From IMG/VR virus record IMGVR_UViG_3300049098_000121, positions 1 through 38,512 of that record: 38,512 nucleotides of DNA; one strand, written 5' to 3'. Below the pieces are notes generated by a model. That model did not search any database, was not told where the DNA came from, and saw only the letters and a list, made by a program, of their open reading frames with translations. Of this stretch, positions 9,888 to 38,109 are shown one piece after another; position 1 is the stretch's first letter, and every line of letters begins with the position of its first letter. The DNA comes from a virus. Position numbers and translations under genes: made by a program.

Positions 9888-10199
9888 TTATTTAACAGTT
9901 AAATGCACTCTTTGAATCATTTTTTGAGTTAATGGAGATTCAATTGTAGGTACTTTGCACTCAATTATATATGTTCCTACAGCATCAGCTCTTAACTTAA
10001 TAGACGTTAACGGAGCTAAGTTTTGTTCATCCATGTTTGTAAGTCCCGCTGGTATAAACCAAATTGCACTACCATTTAATGTGTCATTTTCCGCAGTGAG
10101 CCATTCAGACCAGTCAAGAGTATAGTACTTTTCACTCCCAACAATAGCATCTGGTTTCCACCATGCATTACCATCTGCATCAACGTCTGTTGTAATCAT
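9888..10199 (-). CDS. Beta-sandwich virion protein (LtfC/fibre-adaptor-like)
   Basis: This protein of 103 residues has the motifs WWKPDAIVGSEKYYTLDWSEWL, WFIPAGLTN and a C-terminal QRVHLTVK strand. This Y-LDWSEWL ... I-PAGL layout is shared by small phage beta-sandwich proteins annotated as fibre or tail adaptor (LtfC-like). It sits in a pair with the following 167-residue protein. Ribosome-binding site AAGGATG. Virion placement is inferred. Confidence 0.6.
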   Translation of the reverse strand: MITTDVDADGNAWWKPDAIVGSEKYYTLDWSEWLTAENDTLNGSAIWFIPAGLTNMDEQNLAPLTSIKLRADAVGTYIIECKVPTIESPLTQKMIQRVHLTVK

Positions 10200-10211
10200 A
10201 ATTAACCATCC

Positions 10212-10715
10212 TTACGCAGCAGTATCACCACCAAATCGGATACTAGCATCTGTGTCATTAGCAGCAGAAGCGGCAGCGCTCACAACACGTCTTATCCATA
10301 ACGCCTTGTGTGACCCGGCAGCCAGATCGCCAATAGTCAACTCATTTGCAGAGCCAATACCTGTTTCCCAGGTAACACCTGCTGGAGCCGTATCCTCGTC
10401 ACCGACAGTCTGTTCAGTACCATCAATAGCTGATGTACCCAAGGCAATTGCCATCTGCGTCTCAGAGTTTGCTGTATCAGCAACAATGTATACAGTTGCG
10501 CCCTGAAGCGTCAACGTGCCATGCGCATTTTTTAAATAAATGCAGCGGTACTCTGTGTCTCCAGCAGTTGCCTCATCACTGCTTACTACATCAAATAAAT
10601 TATGTAGGCTTGCATCTGTGACAGTATTTGCATGGATAGCCCCACCCAAAGACGTGATTGGAGTGCCTGTTGCACCTGAAAAATGATATTCTAAATCGCC
10701 TGCTACAATTGCCAT
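10212..10715 (-). CDS. Putative virion-associated beta-rich protein
   Basis: This protein of 167 residues, rich in Ala, Thr and Gly, begins MAIVAGDLEYHFSGATGTPI. It contains LGGAI...LFDVVSSDEATAGDTEYRCIYLKN, a pattern I associate with conserved phage structural proteins of unknown role, and ends in small-residue repeats. It has no signal peptide. Its place between the repeat protein and the adaptor-like protein suggests a capsid or fibre decoration protein. AGAGGA precedes the start. Confidence 0.55.
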   Translation of the reverse strand: MAIVAGDLEYHFSGATGTPITSLGGAIHANTVTDASLHNLFDVVSSDEATAGDTEYRCIYLKNAHGTLTLQGATVYIVADTANSETQMAIALGTSAIDGTEQTVGDEDTAPAGVTWETGIGSANELTIGDLAAGSHKALWIRRVVSAAASAANDTDASIRFGGDTAA

Positions 10716-10728
10716 AGGTTGATCCTCT

Positions 10729-13725
10729 TTATGGTTTTACTATTAAAGTTCTGTTTTCTGGTTCTACAACCAGGGTTCTGTTTTCTGGTTCTACAACCAG
10801 GGTTCTGTTTTCTGCCGGTACTACATATATTATAGAATATTCCGGCGGTTGAACACTATTGATTTGCCAGTGTAAAGTCAAATCATGTGCTGTTTGCTGG
10901 GTTATTCCCCAGTGAAGTGTTAAATCGTTACTTGCTAGATTGTTAATGTTCCATTGAAATGTTATATCACTATTAGCTGAAGTGTTTATATCCCAAAACA
11001 GCAACGTATCTTTATAAACAGCACTTAATATATTCCAGTGTAGTTCGGTTGTGCTGTAGACGTTATTCTGAATACCCCATTGCAGCGTTAGGTCGTTCGT
11101 GACCTGGCCGGGTTGTTCAGATATATCCCAATGAAGCGTTAAATCATTAGAAATTACTTGCTCAATATTCCAGTATAAATCTAAATCATTTGTTACTGTG
11201 TCATTGATTCCCCACTGTAGATCCAGATCGCTAGAAACTAAGTTATTAACATTCCAGTACAGATCCAGATCACCTGTCACCAGGCTATTAATACCCCATG
11301 ATAAAGTTAAATCATTTGATACCGATCCAGGTTGTTCTGAGATATCCCAGTGCAAAGTAAGATCGTCAGAGACAGTGGTGTTGATCCCCCATTGCAAAGT
11401 TAAATCTGTATCAACAGAGTCGTTTATTCCCCAGGCTAAATCTAAATCATTTGATATTGCGCCATTCACGCCCCATTGCAAATCTAAATCGTTACTTGCT
11501 GAATCATTAACACCCCAATACAGCGTTAAATCATCATTAACAGAATCATTAATTCCCCATTGCAAGGTTAAGTCGTTTGATACAGCACCGGGCTGTTCTG
11601 CTATATTCCAGTGAAGCGTTAAATCATCATTAACAGAACCGTTGACGCCCCAATACAAATCCAGGTCTTTGGTTGCCTGGCTGTTTATTCCCCAATGAAA
11701 GGTTAAATCGCCATCAACGCTATCATTGATTCCCCACTGTAATAACAGGTCATCGCTTACTGAGCCATTAACGCCCCATTGTAGGCCCAGATCATTAGAG
11801 ATAACCTCGTTGATATCCCATTGTAATGATAGATCATTAACAATTGAGTCATTAATCCCCCAATGGAGTGTTAAATCATTTACAGCGCTACTATTAACAC
11901 CCCAGTACAGCGTTAAATCCTGGTTAACTGAATTGTTTATATCCCAATATAGGCTTAAATCATTTGAAATCGCATTGTTGATATTCCAATATAAATCTAA
12001 ATCATTTGTAACGCTGTCATTAACATTCCAGTACAGATCCAGATCACTAGACACAGCGTCGTTAATATTCCAGTACAGATCAAGGTCATTAGAAACTGCT
12101 GTCGTGCTTGACCCGCCATCTATGCCGATTGACCATACTGTTATTGCTTCAGCGTCAATATCAGAGGTGAATACAGCACTTAGATCAGCGCCTGCATCAT
12201 ATAAGATTGAACTTGTGCCAATGTGATAATCACTGTTCGCCGCATCAACGAAGTCTGTGCTTGCGGTTATATTGGTTGTAAGTGGGTTTGACCCAGGAGG
12301 CGTGTTTGTCGCTGCATCGTCAGCCGCATTATTCGTTGAGCCTGTCGCCCAATCGCCCGTATTATTTAAGTGATAATTGTTTGTTGCTGTTATCGCGAAA
12401 CAGTTTTTGAGAGTAATGCCGTCTGTTGCTAAGTCGTGATAATAACCGTATGTTGAGCCTGCCGAGCCACAATTAAGGTATTGCGCCGTCGATGAACTGG
12501 AGAAATAATTAACCAGCATATCGCTGGCAAAATCACTGTCAGCCAAACAGTTAATTAATGTGACATTTCCGGCGTTAACATTAAAACCTAATACATCACC
12601 CGCCGTGTTCGTATTTGTAACAATACAACCGACTAATTTAGAATAGTCCCCCGTTGTGATCTTGTATCCATGAACGTATCCGGTAGCAGTACCCTCTTTG
12701 GATATATCCATGTATTCAATGAGCGTATAATCGCAATTTACGTCAAAACCGGAACCCCATGTAGTTTTTAGATAAAACCCTGTCTGTGGTGTGCCGTCGT
12801 GTCTTTCATCCGGTAAAACATGGATATGGGCATAATGCGTTGCGTCTGTGGTTCTTTCAGCGATAACCACATTATCACTAAGGCCACTCGCCCAGTCGTT
12901 ATAAACATTAAGCCGCCATATCTCATCATCAGTTACAAGACTCGCAGGTAAATCATCTTCCCAGAGCGACATTAACGAGTAATCGCCACCGCTTGACCTT
13001 AGCGTATAAGTGATTGTGGGCGCATTTATATTCCAGTACAGATCCAGATCGCTTGAGGCTGCACTATTAATGCCCCACTGCAAACCAAGGTCGTTTGTTA
13101 CAGAATCGTTAATACCCCATTGCAGATCCAGATCGCTAGAAACTGAATCGTTTACGTTCCATTGTAAATCTAAATCATTTGATACCGCTGTTGTGCCGTC
13201 GTCATACGTTATCGTAAACGTGATGTTATCAATATATAACTGTAAATCAGCAGTAGGATGGGATTGAAGCGTAAGCGTTACATTAGCGCGGATATAGACG
13301 GTGTTATCACTGGCAAATGAATGGCCTGTGCTATCAGTCCCGTTGTTGGTGTACCAGGTTGAATCAGGGCCTGTCCATGATCTGGTTGATGCAAGCGTTA
13401 TATTTGTTGTATCGTCTGTCAGAACAACATCATCAACCTGACAGGTAGTTTCTCTGTTACAGACTGGAACCTGATAATCTGCGCTTGCACTTGTGACACC
13501 TGTTACCGTAGACCCAGCCGGAACGCCTAAATCTTCCCAGGTTGTCTCTAATTCCCAATAACCATCAGGACATGTAAGGCCACCATTGCCATCCATGTCA
13601 ATATAAAGTGAGCCAGACGGATTACCCACGCTGCTGCTATGTGAAAATGTAGCATCACCAACACTTTGACCTACAAAACTCTCTGTGGTTGTCGCAAACG
13701 TAAAGGTCTTTTGTACAGTAGCCAT
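10729..13725 (-). CDS. Giant repeat protein: 33 copies of a 14-residue unit around a beta-helix domain
   Basis: This protein has 998 residues. The N-terminal domain (about 1-180) is beta-rich (FTFATTTESFVGQSVGDATF). Four 14-residue repeats follow (181-236), consensus VSNDLDLxWxINDS. Residues about 237-540 look like a right-handed beta-helix (DYTLIEYMDISKEG, NVTLINCLADSDF, GITLKNCFAI). Then come 29 more repeats (about 544-958) with three regular EQPG insertions of three extra residues, and a C-terminal triplicated ENRTLVVEP motif. Each unit pairs an alternating DLxLxW strand with a turn, consistent with a long beta-stack or shaft. A virion fibre or host-binding protein is likely from its place in the late operon, but no characterised relative is recognised. 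Confidence 0.75.
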   Translation of the reverse strand: MATVQKTFTFATTTESFVGQSVGDATFSHSSSVGNPSGSLYIDMDGNGGLTCPDGYWELETTWEDLGVPAGSTVTGVTSASADYQVPVCNRETTCQVDDVVLTDDTTNITLASTRSWTGPDSTWYTNNGTDSTGHSFASDNTVYIRANVTLTLQSHPTADLQLYIDNITFTITYDDGTTAVSNDLDLQWNVNDSVSSDLDLQWGINDSVTNDLGLQWGINSAASSDLDLYWNINAPTITYTLRSSGGDYSLMSLWEDDLPASLVTDDEIWRLNVYNDWASGLSDNVVIAERTTDATHYAHIHVLPDERHDGTPQTGFYLKTTWGSGFDVNCDYTLIEYMDISKEGTATGYVHGYKITTGDYSKLVGCIVTNTNTAGDVLGFNVNAGNVTLINCLADSDFASDMLVNYFSSSSTAQYLNCGSAGSTYGYYHDLATDGITLKNCFAITATNNYHLNNTGDWATGSTNNAADDAATNTPPGSNPLTTNITASTDFVDAANSDYHIGTSSILYDAGADLSAVFTSDIDAEAITVWSIGIDGGSSTTAVSNDLDLYWNINDAVSSDLDLYWNVNDSVTNDLDLYWNINNAISNDLSLYWDINNSVNQDLTLYWGVNSSAVNDLTLHWGINDSIVNDLSLQWDINEVISNDLGLQWGVNGSVSDDLLLQWGINDSVDGDLTFHWGINSQATKDLDLYWGVNGSVNDDLTLHWNIAEQPGAVSNDLTLQWGINDSVNDDLTLYWGVNDSASNDLDLQWGVNGAISNDLDLAWGINDSVDTDLTLQWGINTTVSDDLTLHWDISEQPGSVSNDLTLSWGINSLVTGDLDLYWNVNNLVSSDLDLQWGINDTVTNDLDLYWNIEQVISNDLTLHWDISEQPGQVTNDLTLQWGIQNNVYSTTELHWNILSAVYKDTLLFWDINTSANSDITFQWNINNLASNDLTLHWGITQQTAHDLTLHWQINSVQPPEYSIIYVVPAENRTLVVEPENRTLVVEPENRTLIVKP
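10732..10818. repeat. Triplicated ENRTLVVEP-coding repeat (27-bp unit)
   Basis: Three near-identical 27-bp units encode AENRTLVV-EPENRTLVV-EPENRTLIV at the C-terminus of the repeat protein. The two central units are almost base-identical, implying recent duplication or gene conversion. Confidence 0.85.
10852..12096. repeat. 42-bp coding repeat array, 29 units
   Basis: 29 x 14 codons plus three extra 3-codon insertions (after units 12, 18 and 23) account exactly for the 1245 bases. Units share Asp-Leu-x-Leu-x-Trp-x-Ile/Val-Asn while synonymous sites vary, so selection has kept the protein repeat over time; neighbouring units are often closest. Confidence 0.85.
13018..13185. repeat. 42-bp coding repeat array, 4 units
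   Basis: Exactly four 14-codon units of the same family as the 29-unit array lie on the N-terminal side of the beta-helix domain of the same protein. Confidence 0.85.
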
Positions 13726-14963: not shown

Positions 14964-17900
14964 TTAATCCTCGTAGAATGGGTAATCAGTAGTAACCAAA
15001 ATTACACCATCCCTTTCTGGCAGGCTAAAGTTAGTCGTTGAGCCATTATTTCTTGTAATGTCTTGCCCTTCAAAAGGAAGTCTACTTGCATCAAATCTTG
15101 TAAACCCAGGGAAATCGTTTGCAAAGTCTATCAGCACTGCGCCATTACCTTTAGGATTACAAATTGAAATCCCGTACTGAAATTCACGTACCCACAGACC
15201 ATCAGCGTTAGCAGCACTTGGCGGGGTATCCACTTCTTCACCCAGGTTCAGGCTATATTCATCAAAATATTGTGGTGAGGCATAAGAACCAAAATGAAAG
15301 TAACCATCTCTTAAAAGAGTCGTTGTTAATCCATAACGCATAATAGCTAAGGTACAATACTCTGGGGCCATGTCTGAACTGACACCCACTAATGCGTATA
15401 CATTTTCTGTATTCTTTGCATGAGCAATGGCTGAATCATACACAGCAAGTGCTGTTGTAAATCCATGCCAGTATTCAATGGATACTTCACTTTTGCCGGC
15501 TGGTGCGCGATCATCAGTAATCAAATGCTCAATGAACCCACCATCCATCAGACCTGTATATTCTGCTGCTTCCATAACAAAATCATTAGCGGGTGAGTAA
15601 TCACTGGTATTCCCCATAAATTTCATGGTTGGTTGTAATTCCTGAGCCTTAATAATGTTATCTGCTATGCCATCGCGATATGCAGGCATAATAGTCGCAT
15701 CATCACCAAGATCATTCGTGCCGTCTATATCCCAATCAGCATTGTCCACTCTGGGTTTAAAGAAAACATTATCAAAATACCAGATATCCCAATTGTCTGG
15801 CGCAAAAAATTCTGTGTTATCCCTTTTAGCTTTATATTGTGGAAATCTATCGCCATTTGAATCTACCACCGTCCAATCAGTAACATTGACAAGGTATGAA
15901 TTGCCGTCCTGTGACGTTACATAAGCATCGCTCGGCTCATCGAGAACCCACCAGCCCTCTGCATCGACTTTGGCCCTTAAATCGGCTGTAGCCGTATCAC
16001 TTGTATTTGATATAACCTGCATCGGCATCGTATATTTACCGAGAATGATATCTGGGTTTTGATTTCTGAGATCACTCAGTACACTTGTCATTGTCCAGCC
16101 ATTTCTGGCCCAATCACGATACATACCAAGTATAGATAAATCGTATTTAGCGATTGTTGCTCTCTTAACCGCATTGTCCATGTCATGAGCACCAATATTC
16201 ATGCCGCCAATTCGCGGGAAGGTCAGTGCTGTTCCTGGTACGGTAGGTTCGCCCGTTTCTTTGTAATCCAGATAAACAATATTGTTAAAGATAATGGGGG
16301 TCGTATATCGTGATAAATAAATATCATCGACTCCACCATTACCTGTATCAGTCGCATAATAAATACCAAAGCCTGCACCTTCGGTATTCTGTAGATAGAT
16401 ATTGTGGATACCATCTGAATTAGCTGAATAATAAGCAGTTCCTGTAAACAGCCTGTCATGTATTTTTAACTGATTATATGTGCCGCCCACTCTATCTTTG
16501 AAGTTAAAACCAATCTTCATATAACAGTCAGTCGGCAGATCAGTATCATAAGAAGCATCCAGAATTAACCTGTCACCTGTTGTGATAAAGGCTGCGCCGG
16601 CACTGCTTAGAGTAGCATCGCCTGACACTGACCAGTTTGTTAAGTCGTCAAAGGTGCTTTCAGCGGTAGGCAATATGCTGACAAGGGCGGTATCATCTTC
16701 ATTCTGATAATTTAATGAATATTGATCTAAAGAGTATTCATCACCGTCTACAGTGAATTTCTTAATCCCACCACTGTAAAATTCTGTAGTGCCATCAGGA
16801 CTACCAATGTGCGTTAATGTTCCAGAACCTACTAAACCAATCGTATGAAACTCACCATCAGTTGGCATGGCTGGTGTAGTGGTTCCCTGTAACACTGAGT
16901 CAATAGATACATCAGTAATTGTGCCTGAAAGGATTTCAAGATTACCACTAGTCACCTTACAGATATTACTGATTGCATAACTAGCCGTATTAGGCGTTTG
17001 TAATTCAATCGCTGTGGAAACAGTAAACGTACCATCAGTCACCTCAATAAACTTAGCAGTGTTAGCCACACCAAAATCTAAATAGACTGTTTGTTGAGTG
17101 GTAGGTGCAGCCGTACCTTCTACTACAACGGCACCTCTGAAATGCTCAGTATTTGTACCGTGAATATCCGTTGTAGATATATCGGCACTTAAGACTAATT
17201 TATCGCCTGCATACCGTGTCGGCACATCAATCGTTAACACACCATTGATAATACTGGCATTATCACCAGAAGCGACAAATGTTTGTTCAGACGATTTAGT
17301 GCCCTCTGTTAATTCCCAGCTTACAGAAGCATTATCGCCATGCAGTGTTTGAGCGTTATCAATAACAATCGTTGCACTTACTGTATTAGCTTGAGCGGTT
17401 GTAATTCCGTAACTCACTGGCGTAGAGATATTAGTATCGCTATCAATTTGCGTAAACCAGACCACATAAGCCGTATTTGAAGTAAGTCCTGTTATTTGTG
17501 GTAAGGCATTTGTGCCCGTGGCTGTAGGTAATTTTGTTACAATCCCGCTTCCAAGTGAGTCAACTTGCGTAGTTAACTCATCAATAATATCCTGACCATC
17601 TGTAATCGTTGTGCCCTGGGCAAACACCCCTGCATAAATTGTTCCTTCTGCCTCATCCGTATTCACAGAAGGTGATATTGTTGTTGTTTCTGCTGTTGCG
17701 GTAGGTGAAGTTAAAGAGGCTGGGCCATCAAAAGCGTTTAATGTTAATGCAAGCGCATTCCATACGGGCGGATTTGCTGTTGGTTCCCCTTCTGTGGCTG
17801 TTAATCTGTCATAGATCGCTAATGGACAATTACCCACATTATCAACAAGAGCACCTGCTAGATCGCCTGTTTCATCTAACCAGTGATGAGTAACGCCTGG

Positions 17901-18446
17901 GATAGAACGCGGATCATCTAGAGCCGCCAGTAAATCAAATTGTGCCTCAGTTAAAACTGTATTATCAGCAAAAAAGAAATCCTGCATGTAGCAGTCATCT
18001 ATAAACTGTGTCACTCCACCCACTAAATTCAGGTCTGCATGTCCAAAAACTACAGCGGTTATCTCGTCAGAGAGCCACGTTCCAGCAGTATCTGTGCTTT
18101 GAATATATTCCTTCGTTCCGCCGATAGGTTTTACATATAAATGACCAAGGGAATCATTTGTTCTTGAAAATCCAATAAAAATCCAGGTATTAAGCGGTAA
18201 CAACTCAACACCCGAAATAGTTACATCTGTAGACGCATCAAGGATGTATTTTCCAATTTCGCCGCCACCTTTTTCCAATTTATGATTATTGGCTGAAGTG
18301 CTTCCAACTGTCATTATTGGGTATGTTGCTCTATCACTTCCAAGATAAAACCAACCGCCCCCTGAAACATTATTCTTTCTTTGTATTACAGACTCAAAAG
18401 CGCCGTAAATAAAGGCATCTGGGTCAACTGGAAAATATATACTCAT
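14964..18446 (-). CDS. Large tail-fibre-like protein with glycoside-hydrolase-like C-terminal domain
   Basis: This protein has 1160 residues. The N-terminal region (about 1-190) resembles a LamG/concanavalin domain (NTWIFIGFSRTNDSLGHLYV). Residues about 225-430 look like fibronectin/Ig-type strands (TGLTSNTAYVVWFTQI). A beta-rich middle follows. The C-terminal 415 residues resemble a TIM-barrel glycoside hydrolase of the putative GHL15/GH114-like kind (GWWVLDEPSDAY, DIWYFDNVFFKP, LDRGFIEH-type acidic segments, MRYGLTTTLLRDGYFHFG). Conserved acids at DEPSD and FDN could be catalytic. It would act outside the cell on a surface polysaccharide. The strand ribosome-binding site is AAGGG. The enzyme family is a tentative call. 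Confidence 0.65.
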   Translation of the reverse strand: MSIYFPVDPDAFIYGAFESVIQRKNNVSGGGWFYLGSDRATYPIMTVGSTSANNHKLEKGGGEIGKYILDASTDVTISGVELLPLNTWIFIGFSRTNDSLGHLYVKPIGGTKEYIQSTDTAGTWLSDEITAVVFGHADLNLVGGVTQFIDDCYMQDFFFADNTVLTEAQFDLLAALDDPRSIPGVTHHWLDETGDLAGALVDNVGNCPLAIYDRLTATEGEPTANPPVWNALALTLNAFDGPASLTSPTATAETTTISPSVNTDEAEGTIYAGVFAQGTTITDGQDIIDELTTQVDSLGSGIVTKLPTATGTNALPQITGLTSNTAYVVWFTQIDSDTNISTPVSYGITTAQANTVSATIVIDNAQTLHGDNASVSWELTEGTKSSEQTFVASGDNASIINGVLTIDVPTRYAGDKLVLSADISTTDIHGTNTEHFRGAVVVEGTAAPTTQQTVYLDFGVANTAKFIEVTDGTFTVSTAIELQTPNTASYAISNICKVTSGNLEILSGTITDVSIDSVLQGTTTPAMPTDGEFHTIGLVGSGTLTHIGSPDGTTEFYSGGIKKFTVDGDEYSLDQYSLNYQNEDDTALVSILPTAESTFDDLTNWSVSGDATLSSAGAAFITTGDRLILDASYDTDLPTDCYMKIGFNFKDRVGGTYNQLKIHDRLFTGTAYYSANSDGIHNIYLQNTEGAGFGIYYATDTGNGGVDDIYLSRYTTPIIFNNIVYLDYKETGEPTVPGTALTFPRIGGMNIGAHDMDNAVKRATIAKYDLSILGMYRDWARNGWTMTSVLSDLRNQNPDIILGKYTMPMQVISNTSDTATADLRAKVDAEGWWVLDEPSDAYVTSQDGNSYLVNVTDWTVVDSNGDRFPQYKAKRDNTEFFAPDNWDIWYFDNVFFKPRVDNADWDIDGTNDLGDDATIMPAYRDGIADNIIKAQELQPTMKFMGNTSDYSPANDFVMEAAEYTGLMDGGFIEHLITDDRAPAGKSEVSIEYWHGFTTALAVYDSAIAHAKNTENVYALVGVSSDMAPEYCTLAIMRYGLTTTLLRDGYFHFGSYASPQYFDEYSLNLGEEVDTPPSAANADGLWVREFQYGISICNPKGNGAVLIDFANDFPGFTRFDASRLPFEGQDITRNNGSTTNFSLPERDGVILVTTDYPFYED

Positions 18447-18450
18447 TTTT

Positions 18451-20775
18451 TTAAGCCCTTGGTAAAAATGCCCACATCGGGTTCTCTATGGACGCGTCTT
18501 TAGGTACAACTGTCGCCAAACAGTAAGCCCATGCTTCATTCCCATAGGGTAATGCTGTTGTGAAACTTAAATGTGCAGCAGCTAAGTGATCATATCTTAA
18601 TGCGTTTTGATCTGCTTCTGTATATAGCACTGTTTCTGCAATATATTCTGGTTGATATAGAGACATCATTTCCGCAATATCTACCGGCCATGTTCCATCC
18701 AGTTTAACGGCTGGGTAAGGATAAGCCCCAATCATTGCAGGTTCAAATGCGACATTTGAAAATATACCTCTATAATACCGGCTTACAAACTCTAAAAGAT
18801 TATCAGTTTTATATCCTAATTCTTTAGCCCTTCCGAACGCTGTACCTAAATATGAAGTCTGGAATCCACCAGACGCTGTTTCTAAAATAGTTGTATCAAA
18901 CTTTCCAAACAGATTGGCATATTCAGTATATCCGTCATTCCAATTACCATGAGGCGCAACAACACCACTATATTTGGTAAACCAAAATCGCACATTTGTA
19001 ATTGCAAAATTGTATAAATCAACATGCTCAGGATAACTTTGATTTAACCCATGCCATCCTTCCCAAAAAGCAATCATTTCTTTATTTAGCCGTTTAAAAT
19101 AGGCTTTTGAAGGGTGCGCATCTGGAAGCAAATCTTCTGTAGTACATCGAAGATTACAAGACCACGCCGAGCCTCTTGCCTGATTTCCAAAATAACCACC
19201 TTCGCTACCTGTTGGCCCTCGACCGTAGTTGTCAGTTAATTGGCCGTTGCTATCACCTAGAACATAGGTTGCTGAGAACAATTGCATTTCCAGATAATAG
19301 TAATCGCCTAATAGCAAATAAAGAGATGTTGAGATATTTGGAAAATGCGATGTATCCGCAGACCATGCGGTAGTATATGGGCCGACAGTGTTTATTCGAT
19401 GATCTACATGTACCCACTCATTATCCCATCCTCCCCGTCTTGACCAATGGTAAAATCTACCGAATGGGGAGATTGATATAGGCATTCCGACCGCTGGAAC
19501 AGTACCGTCAAAATCGTAATAAGTAAAAGCCGCATTACCTTCTCTTAACCATATCGGCCATGCTGAGGCTAAATCTGCCTGCCCCTTAGCAATCTCGAAC
19601 ATGCGAGGATCAAAGCTATTCAACCAACCAGCTTCATATCCATTAATTACGCCGATATCCGGTCTGCCACCAGCATTACCCATATTTTTAGCCCACCTAC
19701 CACCACCATAAAGATCAGTGTCAGCCTCAAGCCATAAATTATATCTTCTAACTATCTCAGCCTCTGGTATAACACTGGAAGTGTCATAGTTTGGAAAAGC
19801 ATTTGCTGAAATCAAATAAGGTAGATTGTGATTTATATTTAATTCTGTTGGTGCTGTATCACCCCAAAATTGTTTAGTCCATCTTGATGCAGCCGCATGT
19901 ACTAGTCCTGTTTTTGTATACCTAACCATATCAGAAGTGCCTGTCATCAAAGTTAAGTCATACGTCTGGTCTTGCAGTACCTCAACATTCTCATTTCCTG
20001 CAATATATCTTACTAGATATTTATTAATCCCAGGCCAAAACGTAATATGAAATATAGGCCGGACTGAATTATAAGAATCTGCCCCAACATCATACACTCT
20101 TGTAAGGCTGTGATCAGACAGCACGATAGAGGTAGCTATTGGCCCTTCTAACCAATATTCAAAATGATCATTACTCAACATTGTCCTTGCATTAATAATC
20201 TCAACAGTAGGGAACTCTAATTGCATCTTAGCCTCCCAAGTCATCGCAAGCATTTCTGTCTTTGTCATCGCTGTATCAAGTGTAGTTGCCTGATTGACAA
20301 ATTTAGCGACCATCGCCTGACTTGCATCAATACTTGGGATTACAAAATTAATTACACAATGCTTAACGCTACCATCCGGCCAGCGTGTTTTAACATTAGC
20401 CTGTGTATCGTACAAAACATCTGCAATGCTAACTTGCGGAAAATCAGGAATTGTACCCTCTACAAACTGTCTGCCGATTTGTACAGGAACATCAGTGGCT
20501 GTCGTTGCTGTTGTGTTCGTTAAAGTGATTGCATTTGATATAGTTTCAGGTGGTAACGGCGGAGCCGACCCTGCAACATCCCACGTTAAAATACCATCTG
20601 TATATACATGCAAAACTTCTGTGCTAACACCACCATTACGAACGTATCTGTTTTGTATTTGCAATCCATCACAATATTCATTTTTTATTTCATTATTAGA
20701 AGGATCATAAACTTCATCTTGCGTTCCAGCAAAGACGACATTATTTTGCTGTACTTTTATTCCAATCGTACTCAT
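18451..20775 (-). CDS. Large tail protein resembling PcRGLX/YetA-type polysaccharide lyases
   Basis: This protein of 774 residues has a short N-terminal phage domain (MSTIGIKVQQNNVVFAGTQD ... LTWDVAGSAP) followed from about residue 80 by ITLTNTTATTATDVPVQIGR and KTRWPDGSVKHCVINFVIP. These resemble the N-terminal domain of exo-rhamnogalacturonan-lyase-like (PcRGLX/YetA) proteins. The large C-terminal part is helical and Trp/Tyr-rich (AFWEGWHGLNQSYPEH, WFTKYSGVVAPHGNWNDGY), consistent with an alpha-barrel lyase. It probably serves as a receptor-degrading spike. The ATGA overlap with the preceding fibre gene suggests co-translation. Family placement is from pattern memory and needs a search. Confidence 0.6.
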   Translation of the reverse strand: MSTIGIKVQQNNVVFAGTQDEVYDPSNNEIKNEYCDGLQIQNRYVRNGGVSTEVLHVYTDGILTWDVAGSAPPLPPETISNAITLTNTTATTATDVPVQIGRQFVEGTIPDFPQVSIADVLYDTQANVKTRWPDGSVKHCVINFVIPSIDASQAMVAKFVNQATTLDTAMTKTEMLAMTWEAKMQLEFPTVEIINARTMLSNDHFEYWLEGPIATSIVLSDHSLTRVYDVGADSYNSVRPIFHITFWPGINKYLVRYIAGNENVEVLQDQTYDLTLMTGTSDMVRYTKTGLVHAAASRWTKQFWGDTAPTELNINHNLPYLISANAFPNYDTSSVIPEAEIVRRYNLWLEADTDLYGGGRWAKNMGNAGGRPDIGVINGYEAGWLNSFDPRMFEIAKGQADLASAWPIWLREGNAAFTYYDFDGTVPAVGMPISISPFGRFYHWSRRGGWDNEWVHVDHRINTVGPYTTAWSADTSHFPNISTSLYLLLGDYYYLEMQLFSATYVLGDSNGQLTDNYGRGPTGSEGGYFGNQARGSAWSCNLRCTTEDLLPDAHPSKAYFKRLNKEMIAFWEGWHGLNQSYPEHVDLYNFAITNVRFWFTKYSGVVAPHGNWNDGYTEYANLFGKFDTTILETASGGFQTSYLGTAFGRAKELGYKTDNLLEFVSRYYRGIFSNVAFEPAMIGAYPYPAVKLDGTWPVDIAEMMSLYQPEYIAETVLYTEADQNALRYDHLAAAHLSFTTALPYGNEAWAYCLATVVPKDASIENPMWAFLPRA

Positions 20776-34950: not shown

Positions 34951-36412
34951 TGCCTAATTCCTCTAATTCTTTTTTGCAGTGCTTTAAAATATAAGGGACT
35001 GCCATCACTGGATCGGCATGAATCTCTGCGATCCGCTTGTCTGCGTAATTTTTCGCCTTAGAAACTGGGATCCTAAGAGCATCCGTTAAGACCTTTGTGA
35101 ACCTGTTGTAATATTTTTCAGCCCAATCCTTAAACTCATCCGGTGAATTCCTCTGCATTTCTACATTGATGGCCTTTGTTTCTTTTTCGCTTAACATGTT
35201 AGCCACTGAATTATTTAACTCCTGTTCGCGTTCTGAGGTGGTCGCCATATTTAATGGGGTTAAATACTCATCCAAGCCATCAACTTTGTTTTTGTTTTCC
35301 ATCTCCCTGACTTCGTTTCGATTCAACCACCCATCAGTAATACCTTTCCCGTATGCTTCAAACCGCGATTTTGTATCACCTCTCAATAGCGCATCAGCCG
35401 TGTGTGAAACTGTCAATTCATTCTGTTCCTGCAATGTGAACAGATCGCGCATTATGGTTTGCTCTATTCTTACCAGCCAGGGACGCAGTGTACTTGTGTA
35501 GTATTCAATGCCCTGGTGTTCAATGTTTGAATGAGTGGCTCTTTCCAGGTCTCCCACCTTATGAGGTGGCATCCGGTACCATCTCAAGACATCAGTTATT
35601 TGAAACTTCCTTGACTCTAGGAATTGCGCGTCATTGGCACTCATGCCAATCTGCGAATACTTCATCCCAGATTCTAAAATTAACGGTTTATATGCGTTTG
35701 CAGTACCTTGATGATTATCGGCCCATTGCTTCCTTAAGTGGTCAATCTGTTCCTTGGATAATGTCTGCGGAAATTCCAAGACGCCAGGGATTTGTGCTCC
35801 GTTTGAGTACATTTTTCCGCTTTGCTCTTCGCCTGCCTTAACCACACCCATAGACTCCCGCGCTAAGGCGACAGGAGACAACCCTGTCACCCCGTTACTT
35901 CCTATTGCTGCAATTCTCCATATTTCAGAGTCATTATAAACTCTTGCATTACCTTCTTCTTGATAATCAAAAACAAGTTTTCCGGCACCATTCCGGTCAA
36001 CGTGCATATATTTGGCATTTAATGGCTGCAACATTACAACACGACCGCCACGCCTGATAATTTGACAATAGGCATTGCCTCTTAAAGCAAGGTTCGCCAT
36101 AAGAAACTCACGCATTTCAAACGCTGTTTGTTCACCGTTTGGAGACACATTAAACAGCCTTGACAAAGGGTGGTCACGTAAAACCTCCCTGCCATCGTCA
36201 GATTTGCGGTAAATTTTTAATGGTAGACTGGCAACGTCTTCAGACAGTGTTCTCACACAAGCATAAACAACGCCTATCTGTAAAGCGTTATCTGGATTGA
36301 TGTAAACCCCTGAAGTGGTCGGTAATCCTACGCCTATTTGACGCCACCATTCTGGCTCTTTCAGTGTGGTATCATTGAAAAACCGCTTATACAGATTGTC
36401 AAAAATACTCAC
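34943..36412 (-). CDS. HK97-family portal protein
   Basis: This protein of 489 residues contains VVYACVRTLSEDVASLPLKIYRK, FLMANLALRGNAYCQIIRRGG, IWRIAAIGSNGVTGLSPVALAR, FQITDVLRWYRMPPHKVGDL and THSNIEHQGIEYYTSTLRPW. These are diagnostic for the phage_portal (HK97) family. The dodecameric ring is the DNA entry channel. Start codon is GTG at 36412, overlapping the TerL stop as GTGA. A polar, helical C-terminus extends past the core. Confidence 0.95.
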   Translation of the reverse strand: MSIFDNLYKRFFNDTTLKEPEWWRQIGVGLPTTSGVYINPDNALQIGVVYACVRTLSEDVASLPLKIYRKSDDGREVLRDHPLSRLFNVSPNGEQTAFEMREFLMANLALRGNAYCQIIRRGGRVVMLQPLNAKYMHVDRNGAGKLVFDYQEEGNARVYNDSEIWRIAAIGSNGVTGLSPVALARESMGVVKAGEEQSGKMYSNGAQIPGVLEFPQTLSKEQIDHLRKQWADNHQGTANAYKPLILESGMKYSQIGMSANDAQFLESRKFQITDVLRWYRMPPHKVGDLERATHSNIEHQGIEYYTSTLRPWLVRIEQTIMRDLFTLQEQNELTVSHTADALLRGDTKSRFEAYGKGITDGWLNRNEVREMENKNKVDGLDEYLTPLNMATTSEREQELNNSVANMLSEKETKAINVEMQRNSPDEFKDWAEKYYNRFTKVLTDALRIPVSKAKNYADKRIAEIHADPVMAVPYILKHCKKELEELGNE

Positions 36413-38109
36413 AATGTAATAAATCCTCGGTCATTATAAGCATGGGGTTCTTCCTTTTCACGTTTCAACAACATACCTATCGCGTTTAGAGTTGCAACGA
36501 TTCCATCAACCCGCCCGGTTGCTTTTTTCTTTGAGATTTTTCTATTCCCAGCCGGATCTTCTTCTGTTGTCGCATTTGCCGCGCACCAGGTCATTGCTGG
36601 ATTTCCATTGTGCTTTATTTCATCACTCAGCAGCAATCGCTCAAACTCATCGACAGCAGGCGCCATGTCTTTGTATCCCTGGCCATAAGAATCAAGCGGT
36701 ATATCTTCACCCTCATCGGCAAGTATTTGCTTAAGATCCTCTATTCTCCATCGGTCATAACCAATCACCATGATGTCGAACAAACTGGACAGATAAATAA
36801 TACGTTTACACACAGCCAGTTTACTGATCGCTTTACCGGGTGTCGTTTCAAGATAACCGTCTCTTTTCCACATCAAATAATCAACGCCATCCTTTTCAGC
36901 CTTATTGCTCAATCCTTCCTCTGGCAACCAAAAATAAGGAACAAGACGATAAACGGGATCATCCTCTGTAGGCTCAAAAATCAATGCCAGCGCAGTTAAA
37001 TCCTGAGTGGACGATAAATCGAGTCCGCCCCAACAGCTCCTTCCTCTTAATTGATCGATTTCAATGCTTTCCTGTGCATCTAACCAGACATCTGATGAGA
37101 TCCATGGAGACTCTGCACCCACCCATTCACAAAAGTTCAATCGTCTTACAATAGATTCTGCCGACGGCATCCCTTTTGCCTGTGTGACCAGTTCGCGCAA
37201 ATAGTCTGGCTTAATGGTCACGCCAAGACTGGGGTTAGCCTTTGGCCAGCAGGTCTCATCGTTCATCGGATCATCATTCTCATCCAGCGCGCAAATGTAT
37301 GAGAAAAACGAATCATCCTGTATCTGACCAGCTGCGACCTTCTTCCCATATTCGTGATAATTCCAGCAAACCGATGTTTTATCATGGCCGCTATTTGTGA
37401 TCATAAACATGAGCGCCTGGCGCCTGCCTTTTGTTCCTGCACGAAGCATATCAACGACATTGCTGTTTTTATGCTCATGGATTTCATCCAGCAATGAAAT
37501 ATGAGGCCTTGGACCGGATTGACCATCATCGGCACTGATAGGCCTGAAAAACGACCCTTGTTCTAAAAAGGCCAGGTTCCAGACATTCTGCCCGGTACCG
37601 GATTTAACGATAGCGCCTGATAGATCAGGAGACATATCAACCATGGCAACAGCATCTCTGAACAAGACCATGGCCTGATCTTTTTTTGCGGCAGCGGCAT
37701 AAACTTCCGCGCGAGGTTCCCCATCTGACGTCAAGCCATACATCCCAATTCCAGCCGACAATGGACTCTTGCCTGAACCTTTTCCGGTTTCTACAAAGGA
37801 AACCCTGAACCGTCGATAACCGTCTTCGTTAACCCAGCCAAACAGACTGCCGATAATAAACTTTTGCCAGGGCAACGGATCGTATACTTCGCCTTCAAAC
37901 TCTCCGCCATTTAATCTTAATACTTCCTGAAAAAACCCAATAACATGCAAGGCCCGTTCAACATCAAAATAAAAACCACGATCAGAGGCTTTTTCCAAAT
38001 CGTCAAGATGACGTTGACATGCGTTTCTGACATGAGGACCTGCAATAATTTTCTCATTCACCACATCCATGGCGTAATCGGTTACAGGATCAGAAATATT
38101 TTTTTGCAC
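36409..38109 (-). CDS. terL: Terminase large subunit
   Basis: This protein of 566 residues is the packaging ATPase and nuclease. The Walker A-like motif is VETGKGSGKSPLSAG (about residues 106-120); Walker B is HISLLDEIHEH (about 203-213), with catalytic Glu. The C-terminal nuclease domain shows GGLDLSSTQDLTALALIFEP, GYDRWR and the late acidic DGIVATLNAIGML. This matches the HK97-type large terminase family. It starts with GTG, overlapping the end of TerS by 20 nt. Confidence 0.96.
   Translation of the reverse strand: MQKNISDPVTDYAMDVVNEKIIAGPHVRNACQRHLDDLEKASDRGFYFDVERALHVIGFFQEVLRLNGGEFEGEVYDPLPWQKFIIGSLFGWVNEDGYRRFRVSFVETGKGSGKSPLSAGIGMYGLTSDGEPRAEVYAAAAKKDQAMVLFRDAVAMVDMSPDLSGAIVKSGTGQNVWNLAFLEQGSFFRPISADDGQSGPRPHISLLDEIHEHKNSNVVDMLRAGTKGRRQALMFMITNSGHDKTSVCWNYHEYGKKVAAGQIQDDSFFSYICALDENDDPMNDETCWPKANPSLGVTIKPDYLRELVTQAKGMPSAESIVRRLNFCEWVGAESPWISSDVWLDAQESIEIDQLRGRSCWGGLDLSSTQDLTALALIFEPTEDDPVYRLVPYFWLPEEGLSNKAEKDGVDYLMWKRDGYLETTPGKAISKLAVCKRIIYLSSLFDIMVIGYDRWRIEDLKQILADEGEDIPLDSYGQGYKDMAPAVDEFERLLLSDEIKHNGNPAMTWCAANATTEEDPAGNRKISKKKATGRVDGIVATLNAIGMLLKREKEEPHAYNDRGFITL

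Follow-up and report, generated by a model that had tools for sequence, protein, structure and literature searches.

A 14-residue beta-strand repeat array encoded with two small genes suggests a modular phage fibre

This study focused on a phage gene for a long and very regular repeat protein, and on the two small genes that follow it. The window, by which is meant the whole stretch of DNA that was analysed (38,512 nt, positions 1 to 38,512 of IMG/VR virus record IMGVR_UViG_3300049098_000121), carries all three on the minus strand, between tail genes and a putative lysis region, the latter recognised by eye (Table 1). The array protein is specified by one open reading frame with an ATG start, and the gene of its small partner begins 13 bases downstream. 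Two further genes of the fibre region lie upstream (14964-18446, 1160 aa, and 18451-20775, 774 aa), and neither matched a Pfam or PHROG model at E values up to 1. The terminase large subunit (36409-38109) is 62% identical to that of Halomonas phage vB_HmeY_H4907, which gives the closest indication of the host group.

Table 1. Features of the array gene and its two companions in the window.
Feature	Position	Strand	Remarks
Array protein (P0001), 998 aa	10729..13725	-	single ORF; PHROG 6079, E 1.5e-26
N-terminal domain, residues 1-180	13186..13725	-	no family match
First repeat block, 4 units of 14 residues, W189-W231	13018..13185	-	
Middle domain, residues 237-543	12097..13017	-	beta-helix-like by eye only; no Pfam support
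Second repeat block, 29 units, W552-W953	10852..12096	-	AlphaFold2 model covers residues 544-711
EQPG insertion 1	11587..11598	-	17-residue step 706-723
EQPG insertion 2	11326..11337	-	17-residue step 793-810
EQPG insertion 3	11107..11118	-	17-residue step 866-883
C-terminal R-cap, ENRTLVVEP x3	10732..10812	-	27-bp repeats, copies 1 and 2 identical
Partner gene, 167 aa, PHROG 13135	10212..10715	-	predicted Ig-like fold
Third gene, 103 aa, Gp77-like fiber-tail adaptor	9888..10199	-	PF23148, E 3.3e-4, under curated cut-off

The array protein comprises, in order, an N-terminal domain, four repeat units, a middle domain, 29 further units and a tail of three ENRTLVVEP motifs. Its 33 repeat tryptophans (at 189, 203, 217 and 231, and then 29 between 552 and 953) are exactly 14 residues apart within both blocks, bar three steps of 17 residues, in which the turn is extended by EQPG and one further residue for a net increase of three. 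Numbered with tryptophan at position 9, the unit reads V1-S-N-D4-L5-x-L7-x-W9-x-I11-N-x-x. Trp at 9 and Ile or Val at 11 were present in 33/33 units, D4 in 32, Val, Ala or Ile at position 1 in 32, L7 in 31 (with Phe in the other two) and L5 in 30, while Gly occupied position 10 in 17 of the 33, a site taken by Asp, Asn or Ser in relatives. Positions 1, 5, 7, 9 and 11 were never charged, and the strand face that holds W9 also holds L5, L7 and I11, aliphatic residues that hardly vary. All of the regularity described in a first-pass annotation of this DNA, namely 33 units (4 plus 29) of 14 codons with a fixed Trp and three EQPG insertions, was seen in the translation. Its picture of repeats built around a beta-helix needs adjusting, as the array flanks the middle domain on both sides and that domain is plausibly a beta-helix by eye, without support from Pfam. 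The annotation gave no strand, and mentioned neither the repeat at the C-terminus nor the two small neighbouring genes.

The longest chain of tryptophans at 14- or 17-residue spacing numbered 29, against a maximum of 6 across 2,000 residue shuffles, and chance or low complexity was rejected as the source of the array. Mean identity between units was 51%, and no two of the 33 were identical. In comparisons between units, pN/pS was 0.62 outside the framework and 0.10 within it. Selection on the framework, which had been proposed from synonymous variation alongside conserved residues, is upheld by this, and purifying selection on the beta-strand repeat is supported. Nucleotide identity between units was about 0.55 and flat over distances of up to 15 units, from which it follows that the array is old. 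The C-terminal tail has a different history. It is encoded by a 27-bp tandem repeat (10748-10814, 2.5 copies at 100% identity) specifying the ENRTLVVEP motif, and since the first two copies are identical it must be recent or homogenised; it is far younger than the array units. Open reading frames on the plus strand inside the array (e.g. 11198-11614 and 11726-12226) also show a 14-residue lag, and were set aside as shadows of the minus-strand repeat.

Database searches showed that the protein is not a singleton. PHROG 6079 (annotated 'tail protein', 605 positions) matched it over five stretches, and the same cluster matched the C-terminal half of gp15 of Vibrio phage KVP40, gp15 of F86, and arrays at loci L033, L064 and L026; the repeat itself occurs in dozens of IMG/VR phages. 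Neither Pfam nor NCBIfam holds a model that matched the array protein, no PDB sequence matched the protein or a profile of the array, and for PHROG 6079 no description of a structure, partner or mechanism, and no definition of a repeat, was found. Searching for related loci with the whole array protein returned none. By tblastn against 50,697 phage records, related arrays were found extending the C-terminus of gp15 in KVP40-group Vibrio phages, and the search also gave 14-residue ADLTAPYGLQPGVI-type repeats ending a tail protein in Aeromonas Casjensviridae. In Aeromonas phages AVP3 (L007) and BUCT551 (L010), a large tail protein ends in the ADLTAPYGLQPGVI repeat, which shares the period of 14 with the tryptophan array, has Tyr where that array has Trp, and includes a Pro-Gly turn.

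When IMG/VR was scanned with a DNA pattern describing four hydrophobic-x-hydrophobic-x-W units in succession, at least 118 stretches matched, about half of which were low-complexity or wrong-frame matches and were removed by hand. Inspection of reading frames left at least about 40 arrays judged genuine; among the matches listed, one protein had as many as about 49 tryptophans at the period, and the consensus varied around V-x-[KDS]-[DT]-L-x-L-x-W-[ND]-[VI]. Two successive units of the full DLxLxWxIN consensus had no other match among viral contigs; the exact consensus was found only in this phage, and the looser unit is common. The only match to a genome contig (L129, Plectonema) was a short spurious reading frame with a different repeat. 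Locus L101 carries two array proteins in tandem, one of 1229 aa with about 49 units and the other of 479 aa with about 16, and a small gene between them. A variant form (L028, L055, L076, L089, L103 and L107) has the consensus IPVEW or IPIEW at steps of mostly 14-17 residues, lies within large proteins, and is followed by other small gene families. In the record of Vibrio phage 1.081.O (L132, MG592456.1, 238315-238508), 'CRISPR spacers' 2-6 are annotated inside the gp15 gene; they track the 42-base period of the 14-codon array, and are therefore very probably a misannotation. No paper describing the repeat was found in the openly accessible literature.

The partner gene belongs to a family of no assigned function, PHROG 13135, whose HMM matched residues 18-167 at E 9.1e-32. 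Homologues occur in KVP40-group Vibrio phages, directly after gp15 in the genomes opened, and in an Alteromonas schitovirus, where the gene follows that of a 159-aa protein with Phe/Tyr repeats of roughly equal period; a search of plasmids gave none. A profile made from the partner alone recovered 80 IMG/VR loci. Arrays were called as reading frames with a 14-residue lag (z > 6.5) within about 4.5 kb of the partner, and were present at 56 of the 80 loci against none of 26 controls, the latter being 20 loci recovered with a random 15-mer and six with the window's major capsid gene. With partners clustered at 70% identity, 33 of 45 clusters had an array (Fisher 2e-10). Among partner loci with full flanks, 10/47 were without an array by the 14-lag test, and in the reverse direction a partner homologue was present in 13 of 33 loci fetched by their arrays. 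The first-pass annotation placed Trp in every unit, which is so in this protein; in related arrays Tyr or Phe stands at the same place. This aromatic class changed 10 times on the partner tree compared with 24 after shuffling, and so follows the partner lineage with which it is co-inherited. At several loci (L064, L086, L104, L164 and L172) the gene directly downstream of the array belongs instead to PHROG 1084, a small family with one member weakly resembling BppU_N; the L172 protein weakly resembles L-shaped tail fibre assembly proteins.

The third gene resembles those of PF23148, the family of the fiber-tail adaptor Gp77 of podophage GP4 (PDB relative 8jou, chain D). At 21.6 bits against a curated cut-off of 27 it falls short of membership, and is treated here as Gp77-like; it aligns with relatives that pass the cut-off, and homologues at the same position scored 87.3 (L150), 63.3 (L162), 43.6 (L130) and 27.5 bits (L139). 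One locus, L190, has the array and the Gp77 domain on one protein (PF23148, 1.3e-16). Presence of this gene is associated with the way in which the array protein ends. If an R-cap is defined as at least two R-x-hydrophobic-x-hydrophobic motifs at the end of the array protein, as with ENRTLVVEP in the window, a Gp77 gene lay downstream of 11 of 16 arrays with an R-cap and 2 of 34 without one (Fisher 7e-6, the loci being not all independent). The array is a member of a conserved gene cassette with the partner and the Gp77-like gene. A comparable arrangement exists in the Burkholderia podophages BcepMigl and BcepIL02, which are related to GP4 through Gp77: one gene (BcepIL02) or two genes (BcepMigl) upstream of the Gp77 homologue lies that of a strand-repeat protein with an arginine-rich C-terminus, recorded as virion-associated. 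These proteins (BcepIL02 gp56 and BcepMigl gp57) gave no convincing PDB match. The GP4 capsid paper mentions neither Gp77 nor fibres, and a search of the openly accessible literature yielded none on the GP4 tail.

Where such arrays sit in the virion is indicated by their fusions. Virion connector proteins carry them in independent lineages: they are joined to the tail sheath stabilizer gp15 in KVP40, F86, nt-1 and 1.081.O, with PHROG 227 and PHROG 6079 on a single chain in KVP40 and F86, and to the head-tail adaptor PHROG 442 at L161, L163 and L177; at L198, partner and array are flanked by the major capsid gene and the head-tail adaptor. These fusions, the L198 gene order and the placement of the cassette in the window put the repeat on surface proteins of the neck or tail, and we infer that the array protein is present in the virion of this phage. 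Domains N-terminal to arrays were judged by eye to be LamG-like (L101, L045 and L059), LamG-like with an SGNH-esterase-like domain (L130) or propeller-like (L198), and the one Pfam hit to such a head was Laminin_G_3 at L187, with 23.1 bits against a cut-off of 27.6.

Structure prediction of units as a monomer, a check proposed by the first-pass annotation, was run in AlphaFold2 on 12 units of the window protein (residues 544-711) with an alignment of 30 rows. The model (pLDDT 82, pTM 0.69) consisted of 12 equal strand-turn coils with evenly spaced strands of 7 residues, suggesting a beta-solenoid of 14 residues per turn. It should be taken cautiously, as confident yet false beta-solenoids are known from AlphaFold2 on repeats (PMC11795689). 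That the units are only 51% identical, and that positions presumed to point inwards, an assignment made from strand alternation, are never charged, argues for the solenoid being real. The model is shaft-like, as had been anticipated, and the stacked Trp ladder envisaged with it is consistent with the model. No solved structure in the PDB matches the array, in keeping with the earlier statement that no described structure was known. Foldseek found no PDB match at E <= 0.001 and TM scores were low, the best rows being mostly beta-solenoids. VIA-align gave Z 12.8 (rmsd 3.0 over 166 residues) to the SufB/D beta-helix of chain 9h78_B, although for repeats a Z under about 13 may reflect merely a common arrangement. 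The partner was modelled as an Ig-like domain (pLDDT 88, pTM 0.86) with one clear viral match, an uncharacterised siphovirus protein (E 7.7e-10). Its best PDB neighbours were GH123-type N-terminal domains (Z up to 7.8), with PorA and the chaperone-usher pilins FimA, FimG, PapA and CfaB (Z 5.4-6.9) also among them, all within the common-arrangement range.

The reading that we favour, with moderate confidence, is that the array protein is a modular virion fibre, with binding domains, a beta-strand shaft, C-terminal docking to a Gp77-type adaptor and an Ig-like partner. The N-terminal and middle globular domains would be the receptor- or surface-binding part, and the 14-residue units would build a long, regular shaft. 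The simplest form for it would be a beta-solenoid in which each unit makes one turn, with L5, L7, W9, I11 and V1 facing inwards and stacking. The R-cap may dock the protein to the adaptor specified by the third gene, at a head-tail or tail-fibre junction, and the Ig-like partner, inherited together with the array, would be a structural subunit that binds it or forms its cap. Anatomy, fusions and linkage are all explained by this reading; the role of the partner is its weak step. A self-folded solenoid needs no such partner, and for this reason the main rival that was kept gives the partner a central part: each unit would complete or dock one Ig-like subunit, by analogy with donor-strand complementation in chaperone-usher pili, so that a single array chain becomes a beaded fibre. 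The tight two-way linkage and shared aromatic class, which a free-standing shaft leaves unexplained, speak for this, as do the alternation of the LxLxWxI unit, like that of donor strands, and the presence of many pilins among the PDB neighbours of the Ig-like partner model. Set against these, the pilin scores are of the common-arrangement kind and exceeded by those of GH123-type domains, and for some arrays the stretch examined contains no PHROG 13135 gene, several being followed directly by PHROG 1084 instead. We consider such docking unlikely, and slightly more doubtful still its full form, a covalent strand rail giving a pilus-like fibre anchored at neck or tail, in which the number of units in one gene would set both length and subunit number and donor-strand assembly would proceed without chaperone or usher.

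The monomer model could also mislead if the shaft is an obligate trimer, with three chains wound together as in the triple beta-spiral of adenovirus and reovirus or the triple beta-helix of T4 gp5. Phage fibres are trimers as a rule, the relative of GP4 Gp77 was deposited as three chains of 8jou, and the array has a period near the roughly 15 residues of the adenovirus shaft. However, the adenovirus unit has 15 residues and a conserved Gly/Pro turn, and the array has neither, its period being 14 and its family units lacking a conserved Gly or Pro turn; furthermore, the gp15 and head-tail adaptor fusions place arrays on rings with a symmetry of 6 or 12, and an obligate trimer appears improbable. 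The single conserved aromatic residue per unit, together with the lectin- and esterase-like companion domains, would suit a multivalent binder of host glycans, with exposed aromatics lining the array in the manner of aromatic carbohydrate-binding repeats. This is very improbable, as W9 shares its strand face with L5, L7 and I11, the pattern of buried residues, and substitution by Tyr or Phe tracks the phage lineage.

A modular fibre of the tail or neck, the reading preferred here, belongs to a known kind of thing, and the adenovirus shaft is a familiar case of short-period beta repeats linking an end that docks to a head that binds. Among the closest known relatives of the array are the gp15 extensions of KVP40-like phages, matched like it by the annotated cluster PHROG 6079. 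These likewise have 14-residue tryptophan units, followed directly by the same partner gene (about 36-42% identity). They differ in bearing the array on a neck protein instead of on binding domains, vary in tryptophan number (14, 8, 21 and 12 across four phages), and have the terminase small subunit after the partner, where the window has the Gp77-like gene. GP4 Gp77 is tied to the cassette by the relatives of the third gene that pass the Pfam cut-off. The repeats of BcepMigl and BcepIL02 lack Trp and are some 20 residues long, and no PHROG 13135 partner was seen in these phages. The beta-solenoids of SufB/SufD, FHA and CsgA are of the same fold type as the array model, but have no sequence relation to the array, which consists of 14-residue, one-strand units on a phage protein. 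As far as the literature searched shows, the unit, the cassette and the Gp77 link have not been described together.

These results define a unit, a partner and a probable anchor for a type of fibre labelled only 'tail protein' or 'hypothetical protein', and the unit allows such fibres to be recognised in metagenomic phages whose binding domains share nothing. Through the fusions to gp15 and to head-tail adaptors, the position that the repeat takes in the virion can be tested directly on cultured phages, nt-1 among them. With lectin-, esterase-, propeller- and helix-like heads carried on arrays, the cassette has the look of an all-purpose mount on which receptor-binding parts are exchanged as phages evolve, and the array with its two small genes looks like an undescribed way to build and attach phage fibres.
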